Assembly: GCA_030710605.1 (NCBI GenBank)
Contig: CP092876.1
Span: 67,456,115 to 67,520,114, forward strand
DNA length: 64,000 nt
Direction: 5' to 3'
Source of the DNA: Cordylochernes scorpioides
Taxonomy: Eukaryota; Arthropoda; Arachnida; Pseudoscorpiones; Chernetidae
In this document: piece by piece, positions 2,500 to 47,665 of the stretch
Layout: each line of letters starts with the position of its first letter
Position numbering within the stretch: position 1 is the first letter of the stretch
Made by a program: the position numbers and the translations under genes
The notes under the pieces: model-generated
The model's database searches: none
What the model was told of the DNA's origin: nothing
Seen by the model: only the letters and a program-made list of their open reading frames with translations

Positions 2500-3480
2500 T
2501 TATTTAGTAAGAAGAGGGATTCTACTTTTCAGTACCTTAGGTGCCACTTGTTGGCTTGGTATTTTCTCTAAAGTGGGTATTTTACTTTTTGTCAGTTTTA
2601 ACTCAAATCCTTTTCTTGGGTAGTATGGCCTCAATTTGGATGAATGAATTACCATGGTAGTTTTTCCTAAATTAGATTGGGGTTTATCAATTTCATAATT
2701 GACTGGGGATATCTGTTTTAAGATTGTAAATGGCCCAGACATTGGAGGCATTAATTTTCGGTTATCTGGATGGTAAAAGGTTTGCAACCAAACTTTATCG
2801 CCTACTTTAAAGGTGGAAGGTTGATAATGTTGATCATATCTAATTTTATTTATCTGATGAAATTTTAATGTATTATTATAGGCATTTGTTCTGGCAGTGT
2901 CTATAGGGGGGTAAAATTCTGATTCTTTTAAGGGGGGATCATAAGGGAGCTTACCATACAAAAGGTAAGTAGGAGTATAGCCTGTTATGGAATGGGGAGT
3001 ATTATTATATTCATTTAGTACTGAATCTAACAATGGTATTGATTTTCCTTTCAAGTTATTGAATTTACATCTTAACCTGGTTATTATAGTTTGGTTAAGT
3101 CGTTCATTTAACCCATTACACTGAGGTCTTGATGATGAAGTCAATAATTGTTTAATGTTATTGTTAATCAAATATTTTCTAAATCTTGGTGAAGTAAATG
3201 ATGGTGCCCTGTCACTTAAAAATTGTTTTGGTTTTTGTATTTGAAAAATTTTGTTTAGGCAATTTATATATGAGTCAGTAGTTTGACTTTTTGAGGGGAA
3301 AGCCCAAATGTATCTAGTAGCATGATCTACGATGATGTGAAGGAATTTCTTTGTGGAATTATAGTAATTTAGTCCACCTACTGTGTCTATAGACACAAGA
3401 TCAAAAGGATCCTTAGCTGGGGGGAGACTTTCCAACAGACCAAATTTCTTCTGGTGAGATATCTTATTGAGTTGACACAC
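2500..3480 (-). pseudogene. Gypsy-A integrase
   Basis: Integrase core of a Gypsy Pol. The catalytic triad is visible: SIDTVGG (first Asp), LSDRAPSF (second Asp) and NERLNQT (Glu). It continues with YNNTPHSITGYTPTYLLYGKLP and a C-terminal SH3-like fold (MSGPFTILKQISPVNYEID), then a basic tail. The apparent start at 3480 is not a true start: the upstream part of the domain lies in another frame, so a frameshift sits near 3481. It would integrate element cDNA if Pol were intact. Confidence 0.9.
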
Positions 3481-4852
3481 CTATTATCATCAAATTGAGC
3501 TTGTTTTAGTTCTGGGTCAGAAACAAAATGAGCTATGGGGTATCTGCTGAGAAAATCAGCTTCTTTATTTTCAGTTCCTCTTATGTGTTTTATCTAAAAG
3601 GCAAACATTGAGAGCTTTAAACTCCATCTAAATAATCGTCCTTTTGGGTTCTTTATGTTCTTCAAGTACTTAAGACAAGCATGGTCTGTATGGATGGTGA
3701 AATGCACGCCATCTAAGTAGGGTAAAAAGAAATCCACAGCATCAATAATAGCAAGGCATTCTTGCTCAGTTACACAATAGTTTGATTCATAAGATGTCAT
3801 TCTACGGCTTCTATACGCTATTGGCTTTAAAAGCCCATCGGGTTGTTCTTGTTTTAGGATAGATCCGATCTGTTCTTGGCTAGCATCTGTGTAAAGGTGT
3901 ATAGGGTATTTAGAATTATAGATAGCCAATATAGGTTTTGAGGTTATTATATTTTTTAATTTAGAAAATGCGGTTTCGCATTCTTCGTCCCATTTCCATT
4001 TTACATCTTTCTTCAACAAATTATTCAAAGGGAGTCTGAGTTTAGCATAATTAGGGATAAATTTCGAGTAAATGTTGATAGATCCTAAAACTCGTTGTAA
4101 ATCCTTTTTATTCCTTGGGGAATTCAATTTTCTAATCGTTTCTATATTATTAGTGCTGGGTGAAAATTGATGGTTTGATATTTCATACCCTAGAAAAGAA
4201 ATCTGATAAGTAGCGAATTTACATTTACTTAGTTTTAGCTTAATATTTTCCTTTATGCAAATATCTAAAATTACTTTTAAATGGGTCAAATGTTCCTGAA
4301 AATTATTTGAAAATATAATGAAGTCATCGAAATAATTCATGCAAAAATCAACATCATATTTATTTAAAATTTGCCTTAAAACTCTTTGGAATTGACTTGG
4401 ACTATTTTTTAATCCAAAAGATATAGTTTATTAAATTCGTAAAGTCCGTGAGTGGTAGTAAAAGCTGTGTATTCTTTATCATCTGGGTGTATATCTAAAT
4501 GGTGATAACCTGATAAAAGATCTAGTGTAGTGAAGATATTAGCTTCTGAAAGCTTATCTTATATAGAATCTATTCTTGGTATGGGCTCAAAATCTCTTTT
4601 TATTATATCATTTAATTTTCTGTAGTCTATTACTAGTCGAATTTTACCTTCATTTCGCTTATTCACCAACATAGCAGGGGATGCATAGGAGGAATAAGAT
4701 GGTCTAATGACATTATATTTTAAAAGTTCTTCAATCTGTCTTTTAATTTCAATGTTGTCCGAGAAGGAAGGTCTAAAAGGCTTTAATGAAATAGGTGTTT
4801 GTGAGGTAAGTTTAATTCTAATTGGATCTGCTTTAATATGTCCTATATCCAT
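3481..4852 (-). pseudogene. Gypsy-A reverse transcriptase and RNase H
   Basis: The RT N-terminal part (4559-4852) shows VIRPSYSSYASPAMLV and IRLVIDYRKLN. A stop at 4559 interrupts it. The same domain continues below (TLDLLSGYHH, then a frame change near 4425) into 3594-4340, where MNYFDDFIIFSNN holds the catalytic YxDD motif. RNase H follows (HLYTDASQEQIGSILKQ, YCVTEQECLAI, TIHTDHACLKYL). A stop at 3594 separates it from the linker to the integrase. So there are at least two nonsense changes and two frameshifts. The order and motifs are of the Ty3/Gypsy type. Confidence 0.9.
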
Positions 4853-4937
4853 TTTATGGGCAGCAAACGCTTCCTTATTTTCCTTAATTAATTTTATTAA
4901 ATCAGATTTTTCATATGGTGAAAGTTTTCATCAAATT

Positions 4938-5372
4938 CTACACTATTAAAATTTCTAAAATCATTTTCATTATAGGAGGAATAATAGATTTAAATAAAGG
5001 AATTACATTATGATGTGTATAATTATTATTATTAGGGTTATGGTAATTAACATTAAGAATTCTACTAAATTGAGTAATTTTAAAACTTTGAAAATCAATG
5101 TCTAATTTAAATAATCTTATATGGTGTAAAGAAAGCAATACATATGGCAAATTAATATCAGAGGAATAAAAATCAATATCTCTAACAACAGATCCTATAG
5201 TTGTATTAACATTAATTTTTGAATTTATATTTAGCATACCGGATGTCTGTTTAATAAGAGGTAAATTATTAAAAACAACATAGTTTGGTTGAATCTTATC
5301 TATCATATGTTGAGGAATTATAGAGAAGGTACAGCCAGTATCCATGAGAGCTACAATACTGATATTATTCAT
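4938..5372 (-). pseudogene. Gypsy-A aspartic protease
   Basis: A retropepsin-like segment with the active-site motif VALMDTGCTFSII near its N-terminus, followed by the usual beta-rich stretch. It lies in the same frame as gag. Between the two, a TAG at 5457-5459 and a further in-frame TGA near 5400 interrupt the frame. These may be decay or a stop-codon readthrough site; the second stop makes decay more likely. Confidence 0.8.
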
Positions 5373-5456
5373 ATTTAGATTTATATACAGACCTTGGCGT
5401 CAGGAGTGTTGAGGCGGAGCTGGTCGGCATTCGCTCGAAGGGGCTGTTATCTGCGT

Positions 5457-6191
5457 CTAGGTGTCCATGGATCGAGACGGCACGGACATGAAGCTTGCAG
5501 CGGTGGGGGCTTGCACGGCCCTCTCGCGAAACCAGCACCTATTCTCAGGATGGAAGCGTCCGGCATGTCCCCTGTTCAGGCAAATTCGGCAGGGGCGTCT
5601 TTTAGAACTATAGTCCATAGGGCTTCTTCCTGGATGTCCCCATTGCTTTTGTTGTAATTCCATTCTTGGGGCTGTTTCCCTTTTAAAAGATGACTCCTCC
5701 ATTTTCTTATGTCGATCAATCATTTCTAGTTTAGATACTAACTCTATCCATTCTTCTGGAGTGTCCACCTTTGATGTAATAACTAGTTTTCTAAAATCAG
5801 TTGTTAACCCATTTGTCAGGCCTTCTATTAAATTTTCTTTTGAAATCTTTGCTTTAGAAGCTAGGGACGTTTTTTCCTTAAAATAATCTTCAATCCCTTT
5901 TTCTGGATCATATTTCAGTTCAATAAAAGCTGTAAATGGATTAACTTCTTGTTTGTAAAAATGAGACACTAATTTACCCTCTAGTTCAGGCCAACTTGTA
6001 ATATCCAAACAAGTTTCCACATAAAAATCAAAAGCCTCTTCTACTAAAAAATCTCCAATATTTCTCAATTTCCAGGTATCATTTAATTCTTCTATGAAAG
6101 CCTTATGGTTGAAATATTTGAGCCACGATTTTAGGGCTAGACTTCCATTAGGGTTAAATTTACATACGTTTAATTTATTTTTGTCTGACAT
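5457..6191 (-). CDS. Gypsy-A gag
   Basis: 244 codons from an ATG at 6191, open throughout. The N-terminal and central parts are capsid-like and alpha-helical (LKSWLKYFNHKAFIEELNDT; a retrotransposon Gag signature around YFKEKTSLASKAKISKENLI). The C-terminus has one zinc-knuckle-like cluster (CRICLNRGHAGRFHPENRC) in a basic region. It would form the particle and bind element RNA. The last 250 bp are strikingly GC-rich compared with the AT-rich rest of the element. Confidence 0.8.
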   Translation of the reverse strand: MSDKNKLNVCKFNPNGSLALKSWLKYFNHKAFIEELNDTWKLRNIGDFLVEEAFDFYVETCLDITSWPELEGKLVSHFYKQEVNPFTAFIELKYDPEKGIEDYFKEKTSLASKAKISKENLIEGLTNGLTTDFRKLVITSKVDTPEEWIELVSKLEMIDRHKKMEESSFKRETAPRMELQQKQWGHPGRSPMDYSSKRRPCRICLNRGHAGRFHPENRCWFRERAVQAPTAASFMSVPSRSMDT

Positions 6192-6422
6192 ATTTTTTTT
6201 CTATTTGCAATGCGTTACTTTTATCTTTGTCTTTTAATTTTGGCATTTATATTTAATATATAAAGAAATTTAATTTTCAAGTTGTAATTTCGAATTTTAT
6301 AGTTGAAAAATTTACATCTTTAAAATAATTCCATTTTCGTCTTAACGTAAGACGTCTTTAAATAATAATCAATTATATATTTCTATTTCTATTTTCAAAA
6401 AAGCTTTTCTTTTTTATATACA

Positions 6423-6485: not shown

Positions 6486-6785
6486 TGTCGTAAAAAAAGA
6501 CGTATTCTAGGTACGTTACCAATTCATTCATGCAGTCGTGGATTAAAATAAATGATAACTTTTATTTTCCAAAATTGTATTTATTTTTTTATTTGATTAT
6601 ATTTCTAAGACAAACAGTTTGCATACATTCAATTAAAAGATGATATTATCTAAGTATATACAAAAACATCTTGGGTTGTACTCCTTTTGTTGAGGATTTT
6701 AAAAATCAACTCTGTGTTTGGTTCTATGATTATTTAAAATATAATTATATTAATGAATAATAAAAATCATATTTTTATTATGTCA
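6486..6785 (-). repeat. Gypsy-A 5' LTR
   Basis: Pair of the repeat at 1492-1793. It begins TGTCG and ends TGTCA, then runs into (TA)n. It lies upstream of gag on the minus strand and is therefore the 5' LTR that would carry the promoter. Confidence 0.9.
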
Positions 6786-7207
6786 TATATATATATATAT
6801 ATAAATAAATAGTTGTTTAGTTTTATAGTTTAGTTTTGTATTAAAATTATCTTCACTACTTTGATTATTTAAATTCAAATTATAAAATTTGTAAATTGTT
6901 ATTATTTAATAGAGAGAGAGAGAGCAAAAAAAATCCTTTACTTCTTACACATCATCCATATATATTTATAATTAATAACAATAAAATTTAACAACATAAC
7001 GTCTTTTGCAGTCGGCTTTTACACGTCATTTAGACATACTCTAATTTGTATATAGAATAATAGAAGTGAGAATATATTTAATAGTATAGATTTTAGTATT
7101 TAGAGAGAAAAGAGAGAAAGACAGAACCATGCACTTTTATTCAAACTAATAATAGGAAAAAAAATTGTAAAGAAGGTAGATAAGATTGTTAGTATATATA
7201 TATATAT
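6786..7207. other. AT-rich spacer with simple repeats
   Basis: Begins and ends in (TA)n runs and contains a short (GA)n at about 6911-6923. I see no gene or known element in it. Confidence 0.5.
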
Positions 7208-7351
7208 TAATTAAGAAAAAGGCATCTCCTTATCATGCAACTGAAAGTTGATGATGGCTGGCGCCATCTATCGGAATAAATATCAACTATTCTCGTTGAT
7301 TTTTAATTATTCCAGAATTGGCCAAATACCCATTCTTGATTAATCAAGAAA

Positions 7352-7405
7352 AGCTAACCACGGACGCGTTTCGGGCTGTTGACCCTCATCAGCGTGGTGC
7401 AAGCT
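7352..7405 (-). ncRNA. hammerhead ribozyme, type I, minimal stem III (copy 1)
   Basis: Read on the minus strand: ACCACG, CUGAUGA, a GGG/CCC hairpin with loop UCAACAG, GAAA, then CGCGUC and CGUGGU. All conserved core bases are present. Stem I is ACCACG/CGUGGU (6 perfect bp), then a small internal loop and an AGCU/AGCU helix. Stem II has 3 GC pairs plus a possible U-G. Stem III is only A-U and C-G with a 2-nt loop, so ACGCGU could instead pair between two ribozymes. Cleavage is expected after GUC, between 7363 and 7362. This geometry is the one described for Penelope-like elements, small metazoan retrozymes and some animal satellites. Activity is inferred. Confidence 0.88.
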
Positions 7406-7689
7406 GTACCTCAACGACCAAAAAATTGGTCATTAAGGCATCCTGAAAAATCATGAAACGGGTAGTTAAGGCCAGAATTGCGTGAGGACGCTACACAATG
7501 TGAAAAAATAGTACAAATGTAACATTGTACTGGGATAAGGTGCATAAATTAAGAAAAAGGCATCTCCTTATCATGCAACTGAAAGTTGCTGATGGCTGGC
7601 GCCATCTATCGGAATAAATATTAACTATTCTCGTTGATTTTTAATTATTCCAGAATTGGCCAAATACCCATTCTTGATTAATCAAGAAA

Positions 7690-7743
7690 AGCTAACCACG
7701 GACGCGTTTCGGGCTGTTGACCCTCATCAGCGTGGTGCAAGCT
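7690..7743 (-). ncRNA. hammerhead ribozyme (copy 2)
   Basis: Same core and stems as copy 1, exactly 338 bp further on; no change in any core position. Confidence 0.88.
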
Positions 7744-8027
7744 GTACCTCAACGACCAAAAAATTGGTCATTAAGGCATCCTGAAAAATCATGAAACGGG
7801 TAGTTAAGGCCAGAATTGCGTGAGGACGCTACACAATGTGAAAAAATAGTACAAATGTAACATGGTATTGGGATAAGGTGCATAAATTAAGAAAAAGGCA
7901 TCTCCTTATCATGCAACTGAAAGTTGCTGATGGCTGGCGCCATCTATCGGAATAAATATCAACTATTCTCGTTGATTTTTAATTATTTCAGAATTGGCCA
8001 AATACCCATTCTTGATTAATCAAGAAA

Positions 8028-8081
8028 AGCTAACCACGGACGCGTTTCGGGCTGTTGACCCTCATCAGCGTGGTGCAAGCT
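8028..8081 (-). ncRNA. hammerhead ribozyme (copy 3)
   Basis: Intact core and stems, 338 bp after copy 2. Confidence 0.88.
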
Positions 8082-8365
8082 GTACCTCAACGACCAAAAA
8101 ATTGGTCATTAAGGCATCCTGAAAAATCATGAAACGGGTATTTAAGGCCAGAATTGCGTGAGGACGCTACACAATGTGAAAAAATAGTACAAATGTAACA
8201 TTGTACTGGGATAAGGTGCATAAATTAAGAAAAAGGCATCTCCTTATCATGCAACTGAAAGTTGCTGATGGCTGGCGCCATCTATCGGAATAAATATCAA
8301 CTATTCTCGTTGATTTTTAATTATTCCAGAATTGGCCAAATACCCATTCTTGATTAATCAAGAAA

Positions 8366-8419
8366 AGCTAACCACGGACGCGTTTCGGGCTGTTGACCCT
8401 CATCAGCGTGGTGCAAGCT
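8366..8419 (-). ncRNA. hammerhead ribozyme (copy 4)
   Basis: Intact core and stems, 338 bp after copy 3; the last of the first direct block, about 130 bp before the first inversion junction. Confidence 0.88.
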
Positions 8420-8570
8420 GTACCTCAACGACCAAAAAATTGGTCATTAAGGCATCCTGAAAAATCATGAAACGGGTAGTTAAGGCCAGAATTGCGTGAG
8501 GACGCTACACAATGTGAAAAAATTGTACAAATGTAACATTGTGTTGGGGATTTTTTGGTCGTTGAGGTAC

Positions 8571-8624
8571 AGCTTGCACCACGCTGATGAGGGTCAACAG
8601 CCCGAAACGCGTCCGTGGTTAGGT
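8571..8624 (+). ncRNA. hammerhead ribozyme, plus strand (copy 5)
   Basis: First copy in the inverted block. Core and the proximal 6 bp of stem I are intact. The distal AGCT on the 3' side reads AGGT, so the outer stem I helix is weakened. Confidence 0.85.
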
Positions 8625-8907
8625 TTTCTTGATTAATCAAGAATGGGTATTTGGCCAATTCTGGAATAATTAAAAATCAACGAGAATAGTTGATATTTAT
8701 TCCGATAGATGGCGCCAGCCATCAGCAACTTTCAGTTGCATGATAAGGAGATGCCTTTTTCTTAATTTATGCACCTTATCCCAGTACAATGTTACATTTG
8801 TACTATTTTTTCACATTGTGTAGCGTCCTCACGCAATTCTGGCCTTAACTACCCGTTTCATGATTTTTCAGGATGCCTTAATGACCAATTTTTTGTCGTT
8901 GAGGTAC

Positions 8908-8945
8908 AGCTTGCACCACGCTGATGAGGGTCAACAGCCCGAAAC
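8908..8945 (+). ncRNA. truncated hammerhead ribozyme (copy 6)
   Basis: The 5' stem I strand, CTGATGA, stem II and GAAAC are present. The sequence then switches to unrelated filler at 8946, so the GUC cleavage site and the 3' strand of stem I are missing. It cannot cleave itself. Confidence 0.85.
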
Positions 8946-8968
8946 AAACGTATGTAAAAACGTATGTA
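8946..8968. other. filler at array rearrangement junction
   Basis: Two near-copies of AAACGTATGT lie between the truncated inverted unit and a direct unit that starts midway. Short repeated filler like this is typical of end-joining repair, which is an inference here. Confidence 0.5.
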
Positions 8969-9081
8969 AACTGAAAGTTGCTGATGGCTGGCGCCATCTA
9001 TCGGAATAAATATCAACTATTCTCGTTGATTTTTAATTATTCCAGAATTGGCCAAATACCCATTCTTGATTAATCAAGAAA

Positions 9082-9135
9082 AGCTAACCACGGACGCGTT
9101 TCGGGCTGTTGACCCTCATCAGCGTGGTGCAAGCT
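9082..9135 (-). ncRNA. hammerhead ribozyme (copy 7)
   Basis: Intact minus-strand copy in the short direct block, exactly 716 bp after copy 4; it belongs to a duplicated block that includes the inversion junction. Confidence 0.87.
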
Positions 9136-9286
9136 GTACCTCAACGACCAAAAAATTGGTCATTAAGGCATCCTGAAAAATCATGAAACGGGTAGTTAAG
9201 GCCAGAATTGCGTGAGGACGCTACACAATGTGAAAAAATTGTACAAATGTAACATTGTGTTGGGGATTTTTTGGTCGTTGAGGTAC

Positions 9287-9340
9287 AGCTTGCACCACGC
9301 TGATGAGGGTCAACAGCCCGAAACGCGTCCGTGGTTAGGT
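9287..9340 (+). ncRNA. hammerhead ribozyme, plus strand (copy 8)
   Basis: Intact core. It carries the same AGGT change in distal stem I as copy 5, exactly 716 bp away, showing that the two were copied together. Confidence 0.86.
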
Positions 9341-9624
9341 TTTCTTGATTAATCAAGAATGGGTATTTGGCCAATTCTGGAATAATTAAAAATCAACGAG
9401 AATAGTTGATATTTATTCCGATAGATGGCGCCAGCCATCAGCAACTTTCAGTTGCATGATAAGGAGATGCCTTTTTCTTAATTTATGCACCTTATCCCAG
9501 TACAATGTTACATTTGTACTATTTTTTCACATTGTGTAGCGTCCTCACGCAATTCTGGCCTTAACTACCCGTTTCATGATTTTTCAGGATGCCTTAATGA
9601 CCAATTTTTTGGTCGTTGAGGTAC

Positions 9625-9678
9625 AGCTTGCACCACGCTGATGAGGGTCAACAGCCCGAAACGCGTCCGTGGTTAGCT
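9625..9678 (+). ncRNA. hammerhead ribozyme, plus strand (copy 9)
   Basis: Intact core, both stem I helices (ACCACG/CGTGGT and AGCT/AGCT) and stem II. Confidence 0.88.
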
Positions 9679-9962
9679 TTTCTTGATTAATCAAGAATGG
9701 GTATTTGGCCAATTCTGGAATAATTAAAAATCAACGAGAATAGTTGATATTTATTCCGATAGATGGCGCCAGCCATCAGCAACTTTCAGTTGCATGATAA
9801 GGAGATGCCTTTTTCTTAATTTATGCACCTTATTCCAGTACAATGTTACATTTGTACTATTTTTTCACATTGTGTAGCGTCCTCACGCAATTCTGGCCTT
9901 AACTACCCGTTTCATGATTTTTCAGGATGCCTTAATGACCAATTTTTTGGTCGTTGAGGTAC

Positions 9963-10016
9963 AGCTTGCACCACGCTGATGAGGGTCAACAGCCCGAAAC
10001 GCGTCCGTGGTTAGCT
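9963..10016 (+). ncRNA. hammerhead ribozyme, plus strand (copy 10)
   Basis: Intact, 338 bp after copy 9. Confidence 0.88.
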
Positions 10017-10300
10017 TTTCTTGATTAATCAAGAATGGGTATTTGGCCAATTCTGGAATAATTAAAAATCAACGAGAATAGTCGATATTTATTCCGATAG
10101 ATGGCGCCAGCCATCAGCAACTTTCAGTTGCATGATAAGGAGATGCCTTTTTCTTAATTTATGCACCTTATCCCAATACAATGTTACATTTGTACTATAT
10201 TTTCACATTGTGTAGCGTCCTCACGCAATTCTGGCCTTAACTACCCGTTTCATGATTTTTCAGGATGCCTTAATGACCAATTTTTTGGTCGTTGAGGTAC

Positions 10301-10354
10301 AGCTTGCACCACGCTGATGAGGGTCAACAGCCCGAAACGCGTCCGTGGTTAGCT
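10301..10354 (+). ncRNA. hammerhead ribozyme, plus strand (copy 11)
   Basis: Intact, 338 bp after copy 10. Confidence 0.88.
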
Positions 10355-10638
10355 TTTCTTGATTAATCAAGAATGGGTATTTGGCCAATTCTGGAATAAT
10401 TAAAAATCAAAGAGAATAGTTGATATTTATTCCGATAGATGGCGCCAGCCATCAGCAACTTTCAGTTGCATGATAAGGAGATGCCTTTTTCTTAATTTAT
10501 GCACCTTATCCCAGTACAATGTTACATTTGTACTATTTTTTCACATTGTGTAGCGTCCTCACGCAATTCTGGCCTTAACTACCCGTTTCATGATTTTTCA
10601 GGATGCCTTAATGACCAATTTTTTGGTCGTTGAGGTAC

Positions 10639-10692
10639 AGCTTGCACCACGCTGATGAGGGTCAACAGCCCGAAACGCGTCCGTGGTTAGCT
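10639..10692 (+). ncRNA. hammerhead ribozyme, plus strand (copy 12)
   Basis: Intact, 338 bp after copy 11; last copy before the array ends in (TA)n. Confidence 0.88.
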
Positions 10693-10881
10693 TTTCTTGA
10701 TTAATCAAGAATGGGTATTTGGCCAATTCTGGAATAATTAAAAATCAACGAGAATAGTTGATATTTATTCCGATAGATGGCGCCAGCCATCAGCAACTTT
10801 CAGTTGCATGATAAGGAGATGCCTTTTTCTTAATTTATGCACCTTATCCCAGTACAATGTTACATTTGTACTATTTTTTCA

Positions 10882-11716
10882 TATATATATATATATATTT
10901 TTTATAATTTTATATTTTATCCTTTTTTTTTTAATGATTTTTAAATTTTTTTATTTTAAAATATTAATATATCTAGTTGTATTTAGTAATATATCTATAT
11001 TATGAATTAACTTTTGTTATAATTTTGATTATTATGTTTTGAAACCCTAATGGTAGACCAGACATATACAAAAAATTTAAATTGAAATAATTAGTGGAAA
11101 AAGAGATCTGCTGGACCGGGGATTTTCAAATAGAAATCCAGCTGACATTTCACCCCTGCTCTATTATGTCATAGATCTCTCTTCAACCGGGTTTTATGTG
11201 TTAATATTAAGTTGCTTCAGTGAAACATTTATATGAACAAATCCAACAAATACAAGTGTTAAGAAATTCCAACTGTAAACCTACCTCGTCCGCGACGCCC
11301 TCCTCTGTAAACAGCTATTTCTGGCTGACATATGTTGCGGGGGGGACACATGTCGTTCCTTCAAAATTAGACCGCTTATTCAGAAATTTTAGAACAACAA
11401 GACAACCAAAGAAGAACGAAAAATTAGTTAAGGGAAGAAAGCCAAACTTTATAATCTTTACAGTTAGTTATATTAATATAACTGATTCAACCATTATTTA
11501 TCTTTCAATATTCCTTTAAAAAGGCAAATTATTAGATGATTAATAAAGCTATTATTTGTGAAAATTCATTTTTATTTAATTTCCATTTTCCTCCCCAGAA
11601 ATTGGAGATTAAATAAAATGAATTCTATACAATATCACTTTAAAAATCTTGTGAAAAATCTTCAAATCACTTATATAATTTAAGTTTGATCAACTGTTAA
11701 AGATTATAAATTTGTA
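10882..11716. other. AT-rich flank between satellite and Penelope-like element
   Basis: A T-rich stretch (10882-11035) is followed by mixed sequence. A less AT-rich part (11098-11350) includes CTCGTCCGCGACGCC. A plus-strand frame at 11220-11519 (99 codons) has no domain I recognise. I looked for a GIY-YIG endonuclease at the 3' side of the neighbouring Penelope-like ORF and saw none. Confidence 0.4.
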
Positions 11717-12618
11717 TTAGTTATTATTGAGAGAAATTATAGAAAGTTGATTTAATAAATGGATACTTCCATTTATTTTTTTAAAGTATTTTATAATTGA
11801 TATACTGTTGAAATATTTTACTTGTCTAATACTAAATTTGTTTTTAATAAATTCCATGTTTAAATTTTTAACATCTTCTATGAAATTTTCTAATATATTA
11901 TTTATTCTATAAAATCTTAGAAACTGACCAAAATATATACCTTTACAGCAATTTAATGATATATTAGAATTTATATTACAGTATTTTATAATATTGAAAT
12001 TATAATTACTTTTTTTATTATAAATTTTAATAGCATTATTTGTAAGGTCTATATTTAGGTCTAAAAAGTTAACTTTTTTGTTTCTATTAATTTTTTCATT
12101 GTTCTTAAGTTTCAAGTATTTAGGATATATTTCAGGTATTATGTTTTTAAACTGTGGGTTATTAAATATAATAATGTCATCTACAAAACGGAACATTTGC
12201 CAATTAACATTATTTTGTAGAAAGTATTCTCTTTCGTACCAGAATAGTATTAGATTGGCTAATAAAGGACTTGATGAAGTTCCCATGGGAACGCCTTCTG
12301 ATTGAATATATATATTTTATATTTAAATTCTATATAGTTAAAATTTAAAAATGTTTCCAGTAGAGTTTTTGCTGTTTTAAGATCTAATTTAATTGTTTTA
12401 TATCTGTCATGAATAATTTTAATGTAGAAAGTTTTGTCATTAATGAATTCGTTAAATAAATTGGTTATTTTATTATTTAGATCTCTTAAATTTATTTTAG
12501 AATATAGGTCCTCAAAGTCAAATGTGTGTACTGTTTCAATGTTTGTCCAATTGTTCATTAAATAGTTAATGATTTTTTTATTTGAGTCGATAAATTTATA
12601 AATATATTTATTAGTTAA
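11717..12618 (-). pseudogene. Penelope-like reverse transcriptase, C-terminal part
   Basis: Two minus-strand frames overlap at 12259-12286. The upstream one has TFDFEDLYSKINL, the palm motif A region of Penelope-type RTs (typically DVxxLYTNI). The downstream one has MGTSSSPLLANLILFWYE (motif B) and FRFVDDIIIF (catalytic motif C, with VDD). A one-base loss at about 12285 breaks motif B. After motif C a thumb-like, lysine- and isoleucine-rich region runs to a TAA at 11717. No GIY-YIG endonuclease follows, so this copy looks endonuclease-lacking or truncated. Confidence 0.75.
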
Positions 12619-13322
12619 CTAGCGGACGTACCCGGCTTCGCCCGGGTTTTACCCGAGTAAAAGTTTGTCTAACGAATCTCTCGATAAAGTGAACATTTTT
12701 TCCCGGTCCCTTGAAAAATACTCGATAAGTTGAATAAAATCAATATTAATTGGTTCCCTCGGTAATTGGAAGTTAAAGGAATAGTATCTTGCCTTGGAAT
12801 TGTATCATTATTCTTGTATGGATGTACCCGGCTTCGCCCGGGTTTTACCCGAGTAAAGGTTTGTTTAACGAATCTCTCGATAAAGTGAACATTTTTTCCC
12901 GGTCCCTTGAAAAATACTCGATAAGTTGAATAAAATCAATATTAATTGGTTCCCTCGGTAATTGGAAGTTAAAGGAATATTATCTTGCCTTTGAATTGTA
13001 TCATTATTCTTGTCTCAAATAAATTGCCGTGTCATCCTGAATTTTGTCTTTCCTAATTTTCTACATTACAAAATCATCGTATCATCATGATAATATTTAG
13101 AGCAGATTGTTGAATTATAACAGATAAATTAGAATATTTATCTTGATTATTTCTAGGCGAAAAGTTATTTCAAAAATTTTATTGGCTAGAAACCTTCCCA
13201 GTACTATACTAAATAACTTCCCAAAGTTTCATGGCGATCCAATGAGTGGTTTGGTCAGGCATAAAGGACAAACAAACAAACAAACAAACAGACACACATA
13301 CATTCATTTATATATATATAGA
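12619..13322 (-). mobile_element. non-autonomous Helitron, family B, copy 1, inside the Penelope-like ORF
   Basis: On the minus strand it starts with TC (13322-13321), has a TGTTTGTTTG-type microsatellite, and ends with hairpin CCCGGGCGAAGCCGGG and CTAG (12622-12619). It lies between A and T. The 3' terminal segment is present twice: the hairpin block at about 12627-12655 recurs at about 12825-12853, with the roughly 200 bp after it also repeated. The Penelope-like frame resumes on both sides, so the insertion came later. Confidence 0.88.
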
Positions 13323-14275
13323 TTTATTTATAATAAATTGTAGTGTTGAAGCTAATTGTATATCAATGTTTTTTATAACTGAATTTATACCAGATGTGAT
13401 TGTTCTGAAAGAAATAGGTTTTTTGTGTAGTTTAGGAATTATATAGAACTTTGGTATGTTTGGATTTTTGTAGTAATTATAAATTTTTAGTGAATTTTCA
13501 ACGTTTTTGATGTCTTTTTTGATTTTTGTTGCTGTATTTCTAGCAAAAGTGTATTTGTGATTATTATCAATTTCCTTTTTTAGTATATCGTGGTATAGAT
13601 TTTTACAAATTATAGATAAGTTATTGGAACATTTATCTATAGGAGTGATAATAAAGTCCTTCTGTAAATTAATTATATTTTCTTTAAATGAAGGAATATC
13701 TGAATTAGGTTTTGTGTATTTAAGTGTATTATTATAATAATTTATAATTTCCTTTTTAATATTATGTTTCCATTCCAGAAAAGTAAATTCTGGAATACTG
13801 TATTTTATACTAGTTTTATTTATGAAAATATCTATATCTTTTAATATAGATTTAATTGTATTATTATAATTGTGTTTAATTTGAGGTATATATTTATACC
13901 CTTTATTTAAAATATCCTGATATTCTGGATTTAAAAAAGAAAAATTGCTAGTTAATATATGACCTGAGAACTTATATCTATCAATATAGTTGTTGCAATT
14001 ACATTTAATTTTTTTTTAAATTTGCCAAATTATTAATAAATTGGTTATAATTGCAAACTAAACTACCTATATTTTTGTTGTATATCCAGATTGTTTTAAA
14101 ATTTAAATTTCTTATAGGGAAAAGATTATTGATGTTTTGGTTATTAAAAATATCATTAAATTTAATATGATTAAATAAATTGTTATTAAATTTAATGATA
14201 ATATTAATGTTATTAGTAGATTGTTTAATTTTTCTGTATTTTTCTGTATTCTTATCAGTTTAATCTTTAAATTTT
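13323..14275 (-). pseudogene. Penelope-like reverse transcriptase, N-terminal part
   Basis: Too broken for one ORF but readable on the minus strand. From high to low coordinates it shows IWIYNKNIGSLVCNYNQF, KCNCNNYIDRYKFSGHILTS, IPEFTFLEWKHNIKKEI, DFIITPIDKCSNNLSIIC, FYIIPKLHKKPISFRTITSG and SVIKNIDIQLASTLQ. The PKxHK motif followed by FRxIxS is the fingers signature of Penelope-like RTs, and the ITPxDK motif precedes it as expected. The frame reaches the Helitron and continues beyond it at 12618. A stop and frame change near 14017 break the N-terminal end. Confidence 0.75.
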
Positions 14276-21452: not shown

Positions 21453-22715
21453 TATATATATATAACAATCTATACACAATTTTTTCTTTATTTTTCACTT
21501 CGTGTAACACACTTGTTTCTATTCATCAAATGTTAATGGTTCTATTTATTTTTCAATTCACTCAATTTTCCAATTGTAGGTTACCCAGGTCACTCGGCTA
21601 GTATTATTATAGTCATTTTATGACTGAAAATTTTTGAATTGATACATTATTTGATTGATTTGAATTTTTCTTGGTTGAAATTATGAAAAATACTTACTTC
21701 CATATTTAACTCTAAGGTATTCCTATGCATAAATGCTTCTCTTGCTGTCAATATTTTAATTGTTTTAAGTTATTCACTGGACAAAAATATATATTTTTTT
21801 TCCATTTTACTTAGGATGTTTGATACTCAGTTGTTATTGATGTTGTTTTTCTAGTGTCGAATAAAGAGCCTCAGATGTCTTCATCTATCTCTATCACAGT
21901 ATTTGCAATGTCCATTATCTTGGGTGTGTAAAGCTGCTGCTCTGGGTTAATACCAATTTTCCGCAAGACTGAGGACATAGCTGGACATGAGAATATGTGG
22001 GTAGGTGTTAGTTTCACACCAGGCCATTTGATACTTTGTTATCTACAATATAATTTTATATGGGTAACATGTTATAAAAGACGAATAAAATTATTCTGAA
22101 GTATTTATAGAATATTAAATAAATATAGGAAACAATTTATGACATTAGAAATTGTGCAGTGATGGAAGGCTGGTAAAGGCGCTAGCCTTCTCACTGTCAC
22201 CATCTGACCAGAGATGACATTCTGGGACATCTAGGTGGGAAACGTGGCATGATACATACATCAAAAAATATCCATTGAGTGAATGTGGTTATGGTTGTTA
22301 TGGCGCTGGGATGTGTTTAGATCGATCCCAATAGAGCCGCGTTTTTTTTTTTATTAAAATTTTAATTAAAATACATCTTGAAAATTTAAAATATTTTAAA
22401 ACCATTCTATTATATACCTATACAGACAGAATAATTCACTGTTATTTTTATACTCATACATATTTTAATAAAATGGATGTGTGTGTTTAATAGTTATATA
22501 TTATATTGGAATATGACAAAAATTTCAAATAATTGCATTTTCACACATGGAAAGTTAATAGTTTGGAAAATAATACTGAAATATTTTAATTTATATGATT
22601 CGCTTTTATATGCCTCAAAATGAGGGTATTGGGTACCATATGTCTTCATATATGGGGAGTTTAGATTAAATAATTATCTTAAACATTATATAGGGCTAAT
22701 CAGTTTTTATCATTA

Positions 22716-23416
22716 ACTAGCGGACGTACCCGGCTTCGCCCGGGTTTTACCCGAGTAAAGGTTTGTCTAACGAATCTCTCGATAAAGTGAACATTTATTT
22801 CCCGGTCCCTTGAAAAATACCCGATAAGTTGAATAAAATCAATATTAATTGGTTCCCTCGGTAATTGGAAGTTAAAGGAATATTATCTTGCCTTGGAATT
22901 GTATCATTATTCTTGTATGGATGTACCCGGCTTCGCCCGGGTTTTACCCGAGTAAAGGTTTGTTTAACGAATCTCTCGATAAAGTGAACATTTTTTCTCA
23001 GTCCCTTGAAAAATACTCGATAAGTTGAATAAAATCAATATTAATTGGTTCCCTCGGTAATTGGAAGTTAAAGGAATAGTATCTTGCCTTTGAATTGTAT
23101 CATTATTCTTGTCTCAAATAAATTGCGGGGGCATCCTGAATTTTGTCTTTCCTAATTTTCTACATTACAAAATCATCGTATCATCATGATAATATTTAGA
23201 CAGATTGTTGAATTATAACAGATAAATTAGAATATTTATCTTGATTATTTCTAGGCGAAAAGTTATTTCAAAAATTTTATTTGCTAGAAACCTTCCCAGT
23301 ACTATACTAAATAACTTCCCAAAGTTTCATGGCGATCCAATGAGTGGTTTGGTCAGGCATAAAGGACAAACAAACAGACACACACACACACATACATTCA
23401 TTTTTATATATATAAA
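22716..23416 (-). mobile_element. non-autonomous Helitron, family B, copy 2
   Basis: Same structure as 12619-13322, including the doubled 3' terminal block (hairpins at about 22724-22752 and 22922-22950). Comparison with an empty copy (near 26990, CATTAATTCGAAAT) shows insertion exactly between A and T, so the ends are 22716 and 23416. The 5' TC has become TT. Confidence 0.88.
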
Positions 23417-23860
23417 TTCGAAATTTTTTTTTTCATAATTTCAATTAAAATACATCTTGAAATTTTGAAACAGCATTTTATAGTATACATATACAGATAT
23501 ATAAATTCATTTAGGGAAAATCTGGTATTTGCCCTGTTTATTTTCTACTTGTACATATTTTAATAGAATGGATGTGTGTTCAATAGTTCTTTTATTTCAA
23601 AATATGACAAAAATTTCAAAAAAACTACATTTTCACACATAGAAATGGAATAATTTGATAAACATATTGAAATATATTTAAATTTATAAGATTCGCTTCA
23701 TATGCCTTGTAATGAGGGTATTGGGTAGCATATGTCATCATATATGGGGAGATTAGATAAAATAATTATATTAAACATTATATCGGGATAATCAGTTTCT
23801 CTCATTAATTCGGAAAAATGGATTTAAATTAGTGAAATATGTAGTCTGACGCTAAATATA

Positions 23861-36240: not shown

Positions 36241-36392
36241 AATTACATCTTTCTCACATATTCACACACAATCTTGATTAATGATTAAAACTAATCTTTA
36301 GCATTGTTTATTATACTTCATAATATATAATATTCGTTAGGCAAACTTTCACACGGATAAAACCCGGGCGAAGCCGGGTACACATCCGCTAG
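36241..36392 (+). mobile_element. Helitron 3' end with attached fragment
   Basis: The last part (36357-36392) has hairpin CCCGGGCGAAGCCGGG and CTAG, like family B. The first part (36241-36335) is the reverse complement of 41767-41850. The 5' end of this Helitron is not recognisable, so the fragment may have been captured or truncated. Confidence 0.6.
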
Positions 36393-37566: not shown

Positions 37567-38428
37567 AATATGTAGGTTTAATAGTTATATATTATATTTG
37601 AATATGACAAAAATTTCAAATAATTGCATTTTCACACATGGGAAGTTAATAATTTGGAAAATAATACTGAAATATTTTAATTTATATGATTCGCTTTTAT
37701 ATGCCTCAAAATGAGGGTATTGGGTATCATATGTCTTCATATATGGGGAGATTAGATTAAATAATTATCTTAAACATTATATAGGGCTAATCAGTTTTTA
37801 TCATTAATTCAAAATTATTTTTTTTTATATATTTTCAATTAAAATACATCTTGAAATTTTGAAACAGCATTTTATAGTATACATATACAGCCATAAAAAT
37901 TCATTCAGGGAAAATCTGGTATTTGCCCTGTTTATTTTCTACTTATACATATTTTAATAGAATGGATGTGTGTTCAATAGTTCTTTTATTTCAAAATATG
38001 AAAAAAATTTCAAAAAACTACATTTTCACACATAGAAATGGAATAATTTGATAAACATATTGAAATATATTTAAATTTATAAGATTCGCTTCATATGCCT
38101 TGTAATGAGGGTATTGGGTAGCATTTTTATCATATATGGGGAGATTAGATAAAATAATTATATTGAACATTATATAGGGATAATCAGTTTCTCCCATTAA
38201 TTCGGAAAATGGATTTACATTAGTGAAATATGTAGTCTGACGCTAAATATATAGTTAAAACTGTCTATAGCGCTCCCTCTTTGAACTCACCAAAATAGGG
38301 TGTTATAGAGTGGGGGTGCTATAGACAGGTCACTTCTAATGTAAATCGCATCATACTACGTATTTAAAATTGGGCTCTATAGAAAGGAAGGCGCTATTTA
38401 GATGAAGCGCTATAGAGAGGATTAACTG
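37567..38428 (+). repeat. composite repeat, unit 6, second half only
   Basis: Direct orientation resumes inside the first AT-rich module and runs through the second module to a MITE (38252-38428). Confidence 0.85.
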
Positions 38429-40494
38429 TATATATATAAAACAATCTATACACAATTTTTTTTCTTTATTTTTCACTTCTTGTAACACACTTGTTTCCAT
38501 TCATCAAATGTTAGTGGTTCTATTTATTTTTCAATTCACTCAATTTTCCAATCGTAGGTGACTCGAGTCACTCGGCTAATATTATTATAATCATTTTACG
38601 ACTGAAAATAATTGAATTGATTCATTATCTGATTGATTTAAATTTTTCTTGGTTGAATTTATGACAATTACTTCCTTCCATATTTAATTCTAAGGTATTC
38701 CTATGCAAAAATGCTTCTCTTGCTGTCAATAATTTAATTGTTTCAAGTTATTCACTTGACACAAATATATATATTTTTTCCAATTTTACTTAGGATGTTT
38801 TATAGTCAGTTGTTATTGATATTGTTTTTGTAGTGTCGAAAAAAGAGCCTCAGATGTCTTCATGTATCTCTATCACAGTAATTGCAATGTCCCCTCTCTT
38901 GGGTGTGTAAAGCTGCTGCTCTGGGTTAATACCAAGTTTCCGCAAGACTGAGGACATAGCTGGACATGAGAATATGTGGGTAGGTGTTAGTTTCACACCA
39001 GGCCATTTGATACTTTGTTATCTACAATGTAAATTTATATGGGTAACATGTTATAAAAGACGAATAAAATTATTCTGAAGTATTTATAGAATATTAAATA
39101 AATATAGGAAACAATTCATGACATTAGAAATTTTGCAGTGATGGAAGGCTGGTAAAAGCGCTAGCCTTTTCACTGTCACCATCTGACCAGAGATGACATT
39201 CTGGTACACCTAGGTGGAAACGTGGCATGATACATTGGTAACCTATCAAGCCTATCAGCTCTGGATGATCACGACTACATCACAAAATATCCATTGAGTG
39301 AATGTGGTTATGGTTGTTATGGCGCTGAGATGTGTTTAGATCGATTCCAATAGAGCCGCGTTTTTTTTTTATTAAAATTTTAATTAAAATACATCTTGAA
39401 AATTTAAAATATTTTAAAAACATTCTATTATATACCTATACAGACAGAATAATTCACTGTTATTTTTATACTCATACATATTTTAATAAAATGGATGTGT
39501 GTGTTTAATAGTTATATATTGAAAATAACATTTTGAAAATTTAAAATATTTTAAAACCATTCTATTATATACCTATACAGACAGAATAATTCACTGTTAT
39601 TTTTATACTCATACATATTTTAATAAAATGGATGTGTGTTTAATAGTTATATATTATATTGGAATATGACAAAAATTTCAAATAATTTCATTTTCACACA
39701 TGGAAAGTTAATAATTTGGAAAATAATCCTGAAATATTTTAATTTATATGATTCGCTTTTATATGCCTCAAAATGAGGGTATTGGGTACCATATGTCTTC
39801 ATATATAGGGAGATTAGATTAAATAATTATCTTAATAATTATATAGGGCTAGTCAGTTTTTATCATTAATTCAAAATTATTTTATTTTTTTTATAATTTC
39901 AATTAAAATACATCTTGAAATTTTGAAACAGCATTTTATAGTATACATATAAAGCCATAAAAATTCATTTAGGGAAAATCTGGCATTTGCCCTGTTTATT
40001 TTCTACTTATACATATTTTAATAGAATGGATATGTGTTCAATAGTTCTTTTATTTCAAAATATGACCAAAATTTCAGAAAAACTACATTTTCACACATAG
40101 AAATGGAATAATTTGATAAACATATTGAAATATATTTAAATTTATAAGATTCACTCCATATGCCTTGTAATGAGGGTATTAGGTAGCATATGTCATCAAA
40201 TATGGGGAGATTAGATAAATAATTATATTAAACATTATATCGTGATAATCAGTTTCTCTCATTAATTCGGAAAAATGGATTTACATTAGTGAAATATGTA
40301 GTCTGACGCTAAATATATAGTTAAAACTGTCTATAGCGCTCCCTCTTTGAACTCACCAAAATAGGGTGTTATAGAGTGGGGGTGCTATAGACAGGTCACT
40401 TCTAATGTATATCGCATCATACTACCTATTTAAAATTGGGCTCTATAGAAAGGAAGGCGCTATTTAGAGGAAGCGCTATAGAGAGGTTTAACTG
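38429..40494 (+). repeat. composite repeat, unit 7
   Basis: Complete unit of 2066 bp with MITE at 40318-40494. It has an extra internal tandem duplication of about 140 bp (39395-39530 repeated at 39533-39660). Confidence 0.88.
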
Positions 40495-42486
40495 TATATA
40501 TATATAACAATCTATACACAATTTTTTTTTCTTTATTTTCAACTTCTTGTAACACACTTGTTTCCATTCATTAAATGTTAGTGGTTCTATTTATTTTTCA
40601 ATTCACTCAATTTTCCAATCGTAGGTTAATCGAGTCACTCGGCTAGTATTATTATAATCATTTCACGATTGAAAATAATTTAATTGATTCATTATTTGAT
40701 TGATTTTAATTTTTCTTGGTTGAATTTATGACAATTACTTCCTTCCATATTTAATTCTAAGGTATTCCTATGCAAAAATGCTTGTCTTGCTGTCAATTAT
40801 TTAATTGTTTCAAGTTATTCAATGGACACAAATATATATATTTTTTCCAATTTTACTTAGGATGTTTGATACTCAGTTGTTATTGATATTGTTTTTGTAG
40901 TTTCGAAAAAAGAGCCTCAGATGTCTTCGAGAATCTATATCACAGTATTTGCAATGTCCCCTATCTTGGGTGTGTAAATCTGCTGCTCTGTGTTAATACT
41001 AATTTTCCGCAAGACTGAGGACATAGCTGGACATGAGAATATTTGGGTAGGTGTTAGTTTCACACCAGGCCATTTGATACTTTGTTATCTACAATATAAT
41101 TTTATATGGGTAACATGTTATAAAAGACGAATAAAATTATTCTGAAGTATTTATAGAATATTAAATAAATATAGGAAACAATTTATGACATTAGAAATTG
41201 TGCAGTGATGGAAGGTTGGTAAAGGGGCTAGCCTTCTCACTGTCACCATCTGACCAGAGATGACATTCTGGGACATCTAGGTGGGAAACGTGTAATGATA
41301 CATACATCATGATGACTGTATAAACTGTTGGTAACCTATCAAGCCTATCAGCCCTGGATGATCACGACTACATCACATAATATCCATTGAGTGAATGTGG
41401 TTATGGTTGTTATGGCGCTGGGATGTGTTTAGATCGATTCCAATAGAGCCGCGTTTTTTTTTTATTAAATTTTAATTAAAATACATCTTGAAAATATAAA
41501 ATATTTTAAAACCATTCTATTATATACCTATACAGACAGAATAATTCACTGTTATTTTTATACTCATACATATTTTGATAAAATGGATGTGTGTTTAATA
41601 GGTATATATTATATTACAATGGATGTTATGTTTATGATATCAAGTTAAATAAAAACAAAGATAAAATTTGCATATGTTGGTCACTATAAATTTGTATATT
41701 TGTTAGGCGAAATTAGAAACATGATAAAACAATTGGGTATTTAAAAACAAATGTAGAAATAAAAGTTGAAGTATAATAAACAATGTTAAAGATTTGTTTT
41801 AATTATTAATCAAGATTGTGTGTGAATATGTGAGAAAGATGTAATATCGTTGTTGTTTTCTTGGCCTACTGTTTTACATATGGTGTTATCTTGAAATTGC
41901 TTGTTTTAAATATTTTTTAAATTGAGATTATTAGCTAGTATGTAAAAAAATTAAATCTGTTGAAATTTAATTTTGTATTTATATATAAATAAAATTAACT
42001 CTGTTGATTTTTTTGTATTTAATCGATAACAGCGAAGTTATGCATGTTAATATTAGGAAATATATTTTGATGTTAAGCAAAACCTGCTCCATCTCGTTTT
42101 ACATAAATGTTGAAAATTTGGTTGAAATTGATGCATTGTAACGAAAGTATTTAGTGATGTCCACTTATGAAATTTCCATTTATTAATATAGATTGGAATA
42201 TGACAAAAAATTCAAATAATTGCATTTTCACACATGGAAAGTTAATAATTTGGAAAATAATACTGAAATATTTTAATTTATATGATTCGCTTTAATATGC
42301 CTCAAAATGAGGGTAACGGGTACCATATGTCTTCAAATATGGGGAGATTAGATTAGATAATTATCTTAAACATTATATAGGGCTAATCAGTTTTTATCAT
42401 TTTAATTCAAAATTATTATTATTTTTTTATAATTTCAATTAAAATACATCTTGAAATTTTGAAACAGCATTTTATAGTATACATAT
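40495..42486 (+). repeat. composite repeat, unit 8, first part
   Basis: Normal to about 41616. A foreign fragment (41617-42190) and then Gypsy-B (42487-48339) interrupt it. The rest of the unit follows at 48340-48888. Confidence 0.85.
41617..42190 (+). mobile_element. fragment related to the LARD-like interior
   Basis: Non-coding insertion inside unit 8. Parts match LARD interior (TTTGTTAGGCGAAAT at about 41700, as at 32438) and, inverted, 36241-36335. No terminal repeats are recognised. Confidence 0.55.
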
Positions 42487-47560: not shown

Positions 47561-47665
47561 GTTTTCAAAAGGAAAAATGAACAAAGCAAAAAATTTTAAA
47601 ATAAACAAATAAAACTGACTAAACCAGATACGTACTGTTTCAATTATTTCTTTAAACGAAATCAA

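Follow-up and report, generated by a model that had tools for sequence, protein, structure and literature searches.

What kind of element is a 338-bp repeat with 12 copies of a hammerhead ribozyme core, located in a short stretch of a chromosome of the pseudoscorpion Cordylochernes scorpioides, and how did it come to be there? The array is likely to have arisen by insertion of an animal non-LTR retrozyme via a circular-RNA route that included dimeric cutting and priming on both strands. The host is new and the layout is unusual, but the element type is already known from other animals. A retrozyme-like array of type I hammerheads with possible dimer action, as put forward in the original prediction, remains the best-supported reading, whereas its minimal ribozyme and its single direct array do not survive. 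Its suggestion of a new family is unsupported, and the 338-nt linear or circular RNAs that it foresaw are an inference. The window, the whole stretch of 64,000 nucleotides (64 kb) that was analysed, contains the features collected in Table 1.

The hammerhead array is real. The pattern CTGATGA-N13-GAAACGCGTC occurs 11 times in identical form in the window, 5 times on the minus and 6 times on the plus strand, compared with a mean of 0.20 and a maximum of 2 per window in 100 dinucleotide shuffles, and the full core predicted for 11 of the 12 copies is thereby confirmed. As far as GAAAC, the core is found 12 times; in the plus-strand copy with its core at 8921, the cleavage site and the 3' side of stem I are replaced by the filler at 8946-8968. 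A CUGANGA...GAAA...UH core, three helices and an open end on stem I, which together identify a type I hammerhead, are present in 11 of the 12 copies. A relaxed scan that left the loop size of stem III unchecked gave 11 matches in the array and none in the remaining window; when the window was shuffled 40 times the mean was 0.175 matches, and any match appeared in 8 of 20,000 shuffled units. In the covariance-model check against Rfam, on stretches of 67–699 bases, Hammerhead_HH9 (RF02275) was aligned over all 77 model positions with 22.7–23.0 bits (E 0.0004–0.004), which lies below the gathering score of 52 bits and misses the membership threshold of the family, and no hammerhead was listed for the whole window at E <= 1.

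The expected 6-bp stem I (ACCACG/CGUGGU) is found in all 11 complete copies, and stem II of each consists of 4 bp including one U.G. The second AGCU/AGCU helix that had been described is intact in 9 of the 11, but the two copies adjoining the inverted junctions have a C>G in common by which one pair of this outer helix is lost. Stem I carries an internal loop in addition to the outer helix, which contradicts assignment to a minimal class. A normal stem III hairpin with the two pairs originally proposed is impossible because its loop would be 2 nt; helix III is instead one A-U pair closing a palindromic CGCG loop, and such a tetraloop on a single pair (A-CGCG-U) is the arrangement of the amphibian type.

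The 338-nt circle has a predicted minimum free energy of -112.8 compared with -70.9 +/- 5.0 for 200 shuffles (z -8.4), a highly self-paired fold of the kind expected of a metazoan non-LTR retrozyme. Pair probabilities are 0.78–0.87 for stem I, 0.86–0.99 for the outer helix and 0.55–0.62 for stem II, and that of helix III in the circle is 0.0. The best circle fold mispairs the ribozyme core. The hammerhead without the helix III pair (-111.2) lies 1.6 kcal/mol above it and the hammerhead with this pair (-105.3) 7.5 kcal/mol above it, so that forming the single A-U pair intramolecularly adds 5.9 kcal/mol. A double hammerhead reaches -38.3; two hammerheads formed singly add up to -30.6, and two copies of the best single fold to -33.8. 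The best dimer fold (-38.8, versus -38.3) and the best monomer fold (-16.9, versus -15.3 for the hammerhead) both have the core mispaired. Because helix III is predicted to be unstable within one molecule, the ribozymes probably cut as dimers.

Newt satellite repeats were reportedly described by Forster in 1988. By their description in Cervera and de la Pena 2020 (PMC7229834), rather than by sequence, the newt satellite and the axolotl Rtz_331 with its ribozyme HHR_Amex1 resemble the present array in a unit of about 330 bp, a one-pair helix III, a palindromic tetraloop and an expected dimer, but the host here is an arthropod; HHR_Amex1 cuts efficiently only as a dimer. The same text states that helix III of invertebrate hammerheads is typically longer, that most hammerheads of invertebrate retrozymes cut efficiently, and that the fold of most metazoan retrozyme circles leaves the ribozyme free for its active form. 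Among arthropods, the Dolichopoda satellite pDo500 also contains a hammerhead for which single and double forms have been proposed (PMC2837043, excerpt). However, its unit is about 500 bp long, and its stem III forms within one strand with stems I and II across two, whereas the proposed pseudoscorpion dimer would have stems III and I across molecules and stem II local. The repeat-type hammerhead of Aedes aegypti (Perreault 2011, PMC3088659, excerpt) likewise has a palindromic stem/loop III suited to a dimer, but its dimeric stem is 10 bp rather than 6 bp; the RNA was inactive in vitro as tested, possibly for want of a dimer.

Table 1 Features of the hammerhead array and its borders
Feature	Position	Strand	Basis
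Left (TA)n run, with TATATATATATATATT as candidate 16-bp target-site duplication	7193..7208
Left arm; three full 338-bp units delimited by the cleavage sites of four ribozyme copies	7206..8548	-
Hammerhead copy 1, 54 nt with outer helix; core 7363-7392	7352..7405	-	Pattern scans; span counted on sequence
Hammerhead copy 2	7690..7743	-	Pattern scans; span counted on sequence
Hammerhead copy 3	8028..8081	-	Pattern scans; span counted on sequence
Hammerhead copy 4	8366..8419	-	Pattern scans; span counted on sequence
First head-to-head junction; unit position 167 (-) adjoins 275 (+), one extra G	8549
Partial block; one complete ribozyme and one ending after GAAAC	8550..8945	+
Hammerhead copy 5; C>G at 8623 breaks outer helix pair	8571..8624	+
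Truncated 12th hammerhead copy, without cleavage site	8908..8945	+
Filler at duplication breakpoint; a 12-bp sequence almost twice over	8946..8968
Partial block, 296/296 bases identical to 8253-8548	8969..9264	-
Hammerhead copy 6	9082..9135	-	Pattern scans; span counted on sequence
Second copy of head-to-head junction; 716 bp from first	9265
Right arm; four full 338-bp units delimited by the cleavage sites of five ribozyme copies	9266..10884	+
Hammerhead copy 7; C>G at 9339 breaks outer helix pair	9287..9340	+
Hammerhead copy 8; predicted cleavage after C9667	9625..9678	+
Hammerhead copy 9	9963..10016	+	Pattern scans; span counted on sequence
Hammerhead copy 10	10301..10354	+	Pattern scans; span counted on sequence
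Hammerhead copy 11	10639..10692	+	Pattern scans; span counted on sequence
Right (TA)n run; candidate duplication partner	10884..10899

The units lie in two opposite arms placed head-to-head, and the inverted junction between them is present twice via a 716-bp duplication. A single direct satellite with copies exactly 338 bp apart had been predicted, but the strand order across the array is that of four alternating blocks (-, +, -, +), and the 338-bp spacing is confined to the arms (three spacings in the left, four in the right; one spacing is 337). The array is composed of units and junction filler only, and the plus-strand partial block lacks one base of the unit near 8895. Inversion by a perfect snap-back is unlikely, as the junction joins two different unit positions rather than one. 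The unit is 338 bp long with a GC content of 0.402, and these values fall within those of non-LTR retrozymes (tandem units of about 150–450 bp with type I hammerheads; GC below 45–50%). Its longest stop-free stretch, when tripled, is 49 aa on either strand. Neither a B box (two patterns) nor TATA[AT]A was found on either strand of the unit, and the sense strand has four T runs of 5–6. T runs of such length would tend to end Pol III transcription.

Differences between the units are few. Only 21 of 3654 cells (one unit position in one unit) differ from the majority unit, a count that excludes the one-base deletion. Within the 54-nt ribozyme, 2 of 632 cells differ where about 3.6 would be expected if differences were evenly spread, and these two are one event that was duplicated. 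The unchanged core, noted in the original prediction, is therefore weak evidence of function, and the array cannot test selection on the ribozyme. Of the 15 variable unit positions, 11 vary in a single cell, 3 recur only via the 716-bp duplication and 1 is otherwise common: G>A at unit position 171 is found in three non-neighbouring units of both arms, and once more via the duplication. No variant is common to neighbouring units of one arm. This distribution is as would be expected if the units arose together, and unit identity would reflect recent amplification rather than proven selection. However, since G>A at position 171 occurs in distant units, one circle copied round leaves the pattern unexplained.

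That pattern could be due to gene conversion in an ordinary satellite with a relic ribozyme, which would have grown by unequal exchange and inversion and would no longer be an RNA-borne mobile element. Homogenisation also yields near-identical tandem units, and a DNA-level duplication with filler did happen in the array. However, the core and stem I are kept in all 11 complete copies, a (TA)n run borders the short array at each end, and unequal exchange is poorly matched by the lack of variants common to neighbouring units. In addition, coral, mussel and axolotl repeats of such kind are transcribed and circular (PMC7229834, excerpt). An ordinary satellite is thus quite unlikely.

A reverse transcriptase (RT) fragment at 11717-14015, about 0.8 kb from the array, raises the possibility that the units are terminal repeats of a Penelope-like element (PLE) owning this fragment. 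We take the RT to be Penelope-like by its motifs, and it is weakly classified: its pieces, searched separately, gave one weak RVT_1 match under the Pfam cut-off and weak group II/retron matches. The piece 11717-12316 matches two C. scorpioides proteins (92% and 95% identity over 42% and 29% of this piece), the piece 13308-14015 has no homologue at E <= 0.001, and no GIY-YIG match was found in the three pieces scanned. PLE terminal repeats do contain hammerheads, but usually without helix III and tertiary interactions (PMC6155905, excerpt), whereas those of the array have a looped, extended stem I. The ribozymes of the right arm, which is the nearest, are antisense to the RT, and the array stops at a (TA)n run before it. 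Outside the array, blastn of the unit (word 7, E <= 10, >25 nt) gave only a 30-nt match at 36266 in the window. A terminal-repeat origin is therefore very improbable. PLE hammerheads at large are also type I with a short or missing helix III, and the elements form tandem and inverted, head-to-head structures in AT-rich DNA (PMC6155905, PMC11167929, PMC3846280), but the pseudoscorpion unit is distinguished by having no long ORF and by the internal loop and outer helix of its stem I.

Capture of a viroid-like or delta-like replicon is hardly credible: the unit is small, self-paired by prediction and free of a long ORF, but its ribozyme is in one polarity only (neither the pattern scan nor Rfam, run on 699 bases at E <= 10, gave one on the opposite strand), a test that applies to viroid-like RNAs with ribozymes on both strands and not to single-ribozyme ones, and for animal circles of such type DNA repeats are the published norm (PMC7229834, excerpt). 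In IMG/VR, a general core pattern gave 31 stretches, none of them with 3-bp stems I and II (shortest loop II per place), and the exact 25-nt core had no match in bacterial and archaeal genome contigs, where the host range makes the result weakly informative.

In unit size, GC, ribozyme type and self-pairing, the retrozyme reading agrees with what the available text of Cervera and de la Pena 2020 (PMC7229834) describes for metazoan non-LTR retrozymes: repeats of 150–450 bp with less than 50% GC and type I hammerheads, and circles of about 170–400 nt. Further traits given for the family are no LTRs, PBS or PPT, a target-site duplication of >4 bp when present, many dispersed genomic copies, and unit-length linear and circular RNA in tissue. 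The pseudoscorpion array shares the low GC, the self-paired predicted circle and a tandem unit of a few hundred bp in which there is a single type I hammerhead; it differs in its host and in its opposed head-to-head arms, a layout that the available text does not mention. With only one pair and a palindromic CGCG loop in helix III, the probable mode of cutting is a double hammerhead, in which adjacent ribozymes would pair through their ACGCGU segments. The resulting circle may be closed by a host RNA ligase, and an RT encoded elsewhere may travel round it several times to produce tandem cDNA. The head-to-head arms suggest that a single AT-rich target was broken, that each of its strands primed copying and that the resulting cDNAs were joined to each other in the middle of the array; the later 716-bp duplication at the DNA level would then have copied the junction.

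A Penelope-type enzyme could have left such a footprint by reverse-transcribing a ribozyme circle at an AT-rich cut, starting from each of the two strands, with two rolling-circle cDNAs meeting head-to-head. One PLE enzyme is described as cleaving AT-rich DNA and extending the two strands (PMC11167929), and in rotifer Penelope elements head-to-head is described as the most frequent inverted arrangement (PMC3846280, excerpt). However, ribozyme cleavage was unnecessary for insertion by this PLE enzyme in vitro and the authors place the RNA-binding motif within its own ORF (PMC11167929), and the excerpt of PMC3846280 gives no cross-mobilisation between rotifer Penelope families. Both outer ends of the array adjoin a (TA)n run, and the 16-bp candidate target-site duplication is indistinguishable from a split (TA)n run. 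The (TA)n ends are untelling in this window because an LTR-like repeat pair (1492-1794 / 6486-6786) has such runs at both outer ends too. That (TA)n flanks another element type and that two PLE papers tell against the use of foreign circles makes a Penelope-type footprint less probable; it is a tentative and rather unlikely reading.

In a limited literature collection, no paper joined a hammerhead ribozyme with a pseudoscorpion; two joined it with arachnids, neither of them on such repeats by title and abstract opening, and four since 2020 joined retrozymes and hammerheads with insects. The array would extend the amphibian-like, probably dimeric type of hammerhead to an arachnid. Animal retrozymes are abundant small RNA circles; which agent turns them into DNA again is a question raised in the 2020 paper, where PLEs are named as a strong candidate (PMC7229834). 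The opposite, back-to-back orientation of the copies hints at the mode of insertion, and since the array is short and young, its arms are opposed and its ends can be read, the question of retrozyme copying becomes testable by comparing insertion ends across the genome. If the Penelope-type footprint is true, the insertion ends of retrozymes would record the machinery that moves such elements in animals.

The hammerhead core predicted in 11 copies of the 338-bp unit was confirmed. The pattern CTGATGA-N{4,30}-GAAA-N{2,25}-GTC has 11 matches in the window, identical in sequence and all located inside the array of these units; 100 shuffles of the window give 0.20 matches on average. A relaxed scan, which requires at least 4 bp in stem I, 3 in stem II and, with loop size left unchecked, 2 formal pairs in stem III, recovers the same 11 copies and gives no hit in the window outside the array; 40 shuffled windows give 0.175 hits on average. 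Because the array copies are not independent, shuffling of a single unit is the fair control, and at least one hit is found in 8 of 20,000 shuffled units. The proposed covariance-model search agrees in part: Rfam lists no hammerhead at E <= 1 when the window is scanned as a whole. Stretches of 67, 101 and 699 bases return Hammerhead_HH9 with E-values of 0.00042 to 0.0044 and a score of 22.7-23.0 bits, the alignment spanning the whole model. Since this score is below the gathering score of 52, the fold is supported but membership of that Rfam family is not.

The ribozyme reads 5'-AGCU UGC ACCACG CUGAUGA GGGU CAACA GCCC GAAA CGCG UC / CGUGGU U AGCU-3', the slash marking the predicted cut 3' of GUC. 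The original prediction described it as minimal with a stem III of two pairs. Neither description holds: stem I has an internal loop and an outer helix, both features of looped canonical type I hammerheads, and helix III is one A-U pair closing CGCG. For ribozymes of Penelope-like elements (PLEs), the usual form is described as minimal, lacking both helix III and the tertiary interactions (PMC6155905). In an energy model with no tertiary contacts, the isolated 54-mer forms the hammerhead at -15.3 without helix III and at -9.4 with its single pair, and the core is mispaired in its best fold (-16.9). For two strands, a double hammerhead is placed at -38.3 compared with -30.6 for two single hammerheads. 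Helix III is predicted to be unstable inside one molecule and stable between two. The active dimer is not the single best fold of this model, in which a mispaired dimer of the ribozyme strands reaches -38.8.

The predicted 338-nt circle has a minimum free energy of -112.8; dinucleotide shuffles (n = 200) average -70.9 +/- 5.0, which gives z -8.4. Pair probabilities in the circle are 0.78-0.87 for stem I, 0.86-0.99 for the outer helix, 0.55-0.62 for stem II and 0.0 for helix III, and the hammerhead lies above the best fold by 1.6 kcal/mol without helix III and by 7.5 with it. Most metazoan circles are reported to leave the ribozyme free to fold, and plant circles are not (PMC7229834); the array circle is predicted to fall in between. 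The tripled unit contains no stop-free stretch longer than 49 aa.

Instead of the single direct satellite array that had been expected, placement of 11-mers and blastn pieces on the unit resolves four blocks (-, +, -, +) around two inverted junctions.

Features of the array and of neighbouring elements
Feature	Position	Strand	Remark
Left arm	7206-8548	-	11-mer/blastn mapping to unit
Inverted junctions, head to head	8549 and 9265	.	ribozymes point outward from each
Inner block	8550-8945	+	11-mer/blastn mapping to unit
Filler, 23 bp	8946-8968	.	block mapping
Inner block	8969-9264	-	11-mer/blastn mapping to unit
Right arm	9266-10884	+	11-mer/blastn mapping to unit
Broken reverse transcriptase	11717-14015	-	beside ribozyme array, 0.8 kb off
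Insert copies, 97% alike	12607-13324 and 22706-23418		196-bp sub-repeat, hairpin adjoining CTAGT

Seven complete units (3 left, 4 right) lie between consecutive same-strand cleavage sites. There are no differences between 8253-8548 and 8969-9264 (0/296) or between 8549-8894 and 9265-9610 (0/346), and the variants at unit positions u10, u171, u172 and u191 are repeated at a distance of 716 bp around both junctions. In the simplest history, the array would have been inserted once, in head-to-head form, after which a stretch of 716 bp spanning the junction was duplicated in tandem. Because the arms are 99% complementary across 1343 bp, a read-through transcript of both could form a long hairpin.

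Comparison with the majority unit shows differences in 21 of 3654 cells, spread over 15 unit positions. Those at the two extreme array ends (7208, 10882) are probably boundary bases. Eleven of the 15 positions are variant in one cell each, and 3 recur through the 716-bp duplication only. Such star-like variation would fit a simultaneous origin of the units, as in rolling-circle copying. However, a single pure template does not account for u171 G>A, which is present in three non-neighbouring units on both arms and once more as a duplicate.

The array ends adjoin (TA)n runs at 7193-7207 and 10881-10898. The 19 runs of at least 6 repeats occupy 0.4% of the window, or 0.6% with 3-nt margins. The two ends share a direct repeat of at most 16 bp, TATATATATATATATT, which could represent either a target-site duplication or a microsatellite that was split. 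Because other elements are also flanked by (TA)n, little weight can be placed on these runs: an LTR-like pair, taken as control, lies between outer runs at 1476-1492 and 6785-6803, and the CTAGT ends of the Helitron-like copies adjoin (TA)n too. Such tracts seem to serve commonly as targets or boundaries in this genome.

The pair consists of 300-bp direct repeats (1492-1794 and 6486-6786, 98% identical) around retroelement-like ORFs (2500-6200), one with an integrase domain, and they are likely LTRs of one element. By its motifs, the reverse transcriptase is probably Penelope-like, and its closeness to the array may be chance. Its piece 11717-12316 matches two C. scorpioides proteins (92% and 95%), and it is interrupted by the first insert copy, whose hairpin beside CTAGT looks like the 3' terminus of non-autonomous Helitrons. 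For a LINE-type ORF (60409-62916), 10 matches are listed at E <= 1e-20, one being the window's own protein; three other C. scorpioides proteins match with identities of 62%, 98% and 85% (query coverage 48%, 19% and 26%, respectively), and the remaining listed matches have 23-30% identity. These protein matches assign the window to C. scorpioides, a pseudoscorpion and thus an arachnid, or to a very close relative. A weak mir-124 hairpin call inside this ORF (61409-61438; 24.1 bits, gathering 49) is most likely chance. A large broken repeat region (20210-57323) has units of ~2.06 kb (37570-39520 vs 39632-41610, 94%; 53577-55438, 94%), inverted pieces, nested 0.4-kb sub-repeats (roughly 74-83% identity) and (TA)6 runs at the start of several pieces. 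A 54-bp tandem repeat (47706-47982; 5 copies, 95%) lies immediately upstream of the long ORF 45584-47707 (-), which looks like a retroelement polyprotein.

In the published retrozyme cycle, transcription and self-cleavage are followed by ligation by a host ligase, and the circle templates the reverse transcriptase of an autonomous element, for which PLEs are named a strong candidate (PMC7229834). Insertion by a PLE is favoured by the purified Poseidon enzyme, reported to cut AT-rich DNA and extend both strands (PMC11167929), and by rotifer Penelope elements, where head-to-head is described as the most frequently observed inverted structure and the described copies have AT-rich targets and target-site duplications of 8-10 bp (PMC3846280). 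However, the Poseidon enzyme is described as not needing ribozyme cleavage, as using RNA mostly unprocessed and as thought to bind a motif within its own ORF (PMC11167929), and the rotifer study sees no cross-mobilisation between families, although a host gene captured between terminal repeats is described there (PMC3846280). The authors of that study attribute head-to-head copies to self-priming at palindromes. Two separate cDNAs would suit the asymmetric junction, which joins unit positions 167 and 275, better than such self-priming. L1-like twin priming would yield the same polarity.

The array is real, well built and recent. On its sequence, it is best read as an addition to the non-LTR retrozymes of animals, which are small-circle ribozyme elements. 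Its host is an arachnid, and both its amphibian-like helix III and its head-to-head arms are unusual.
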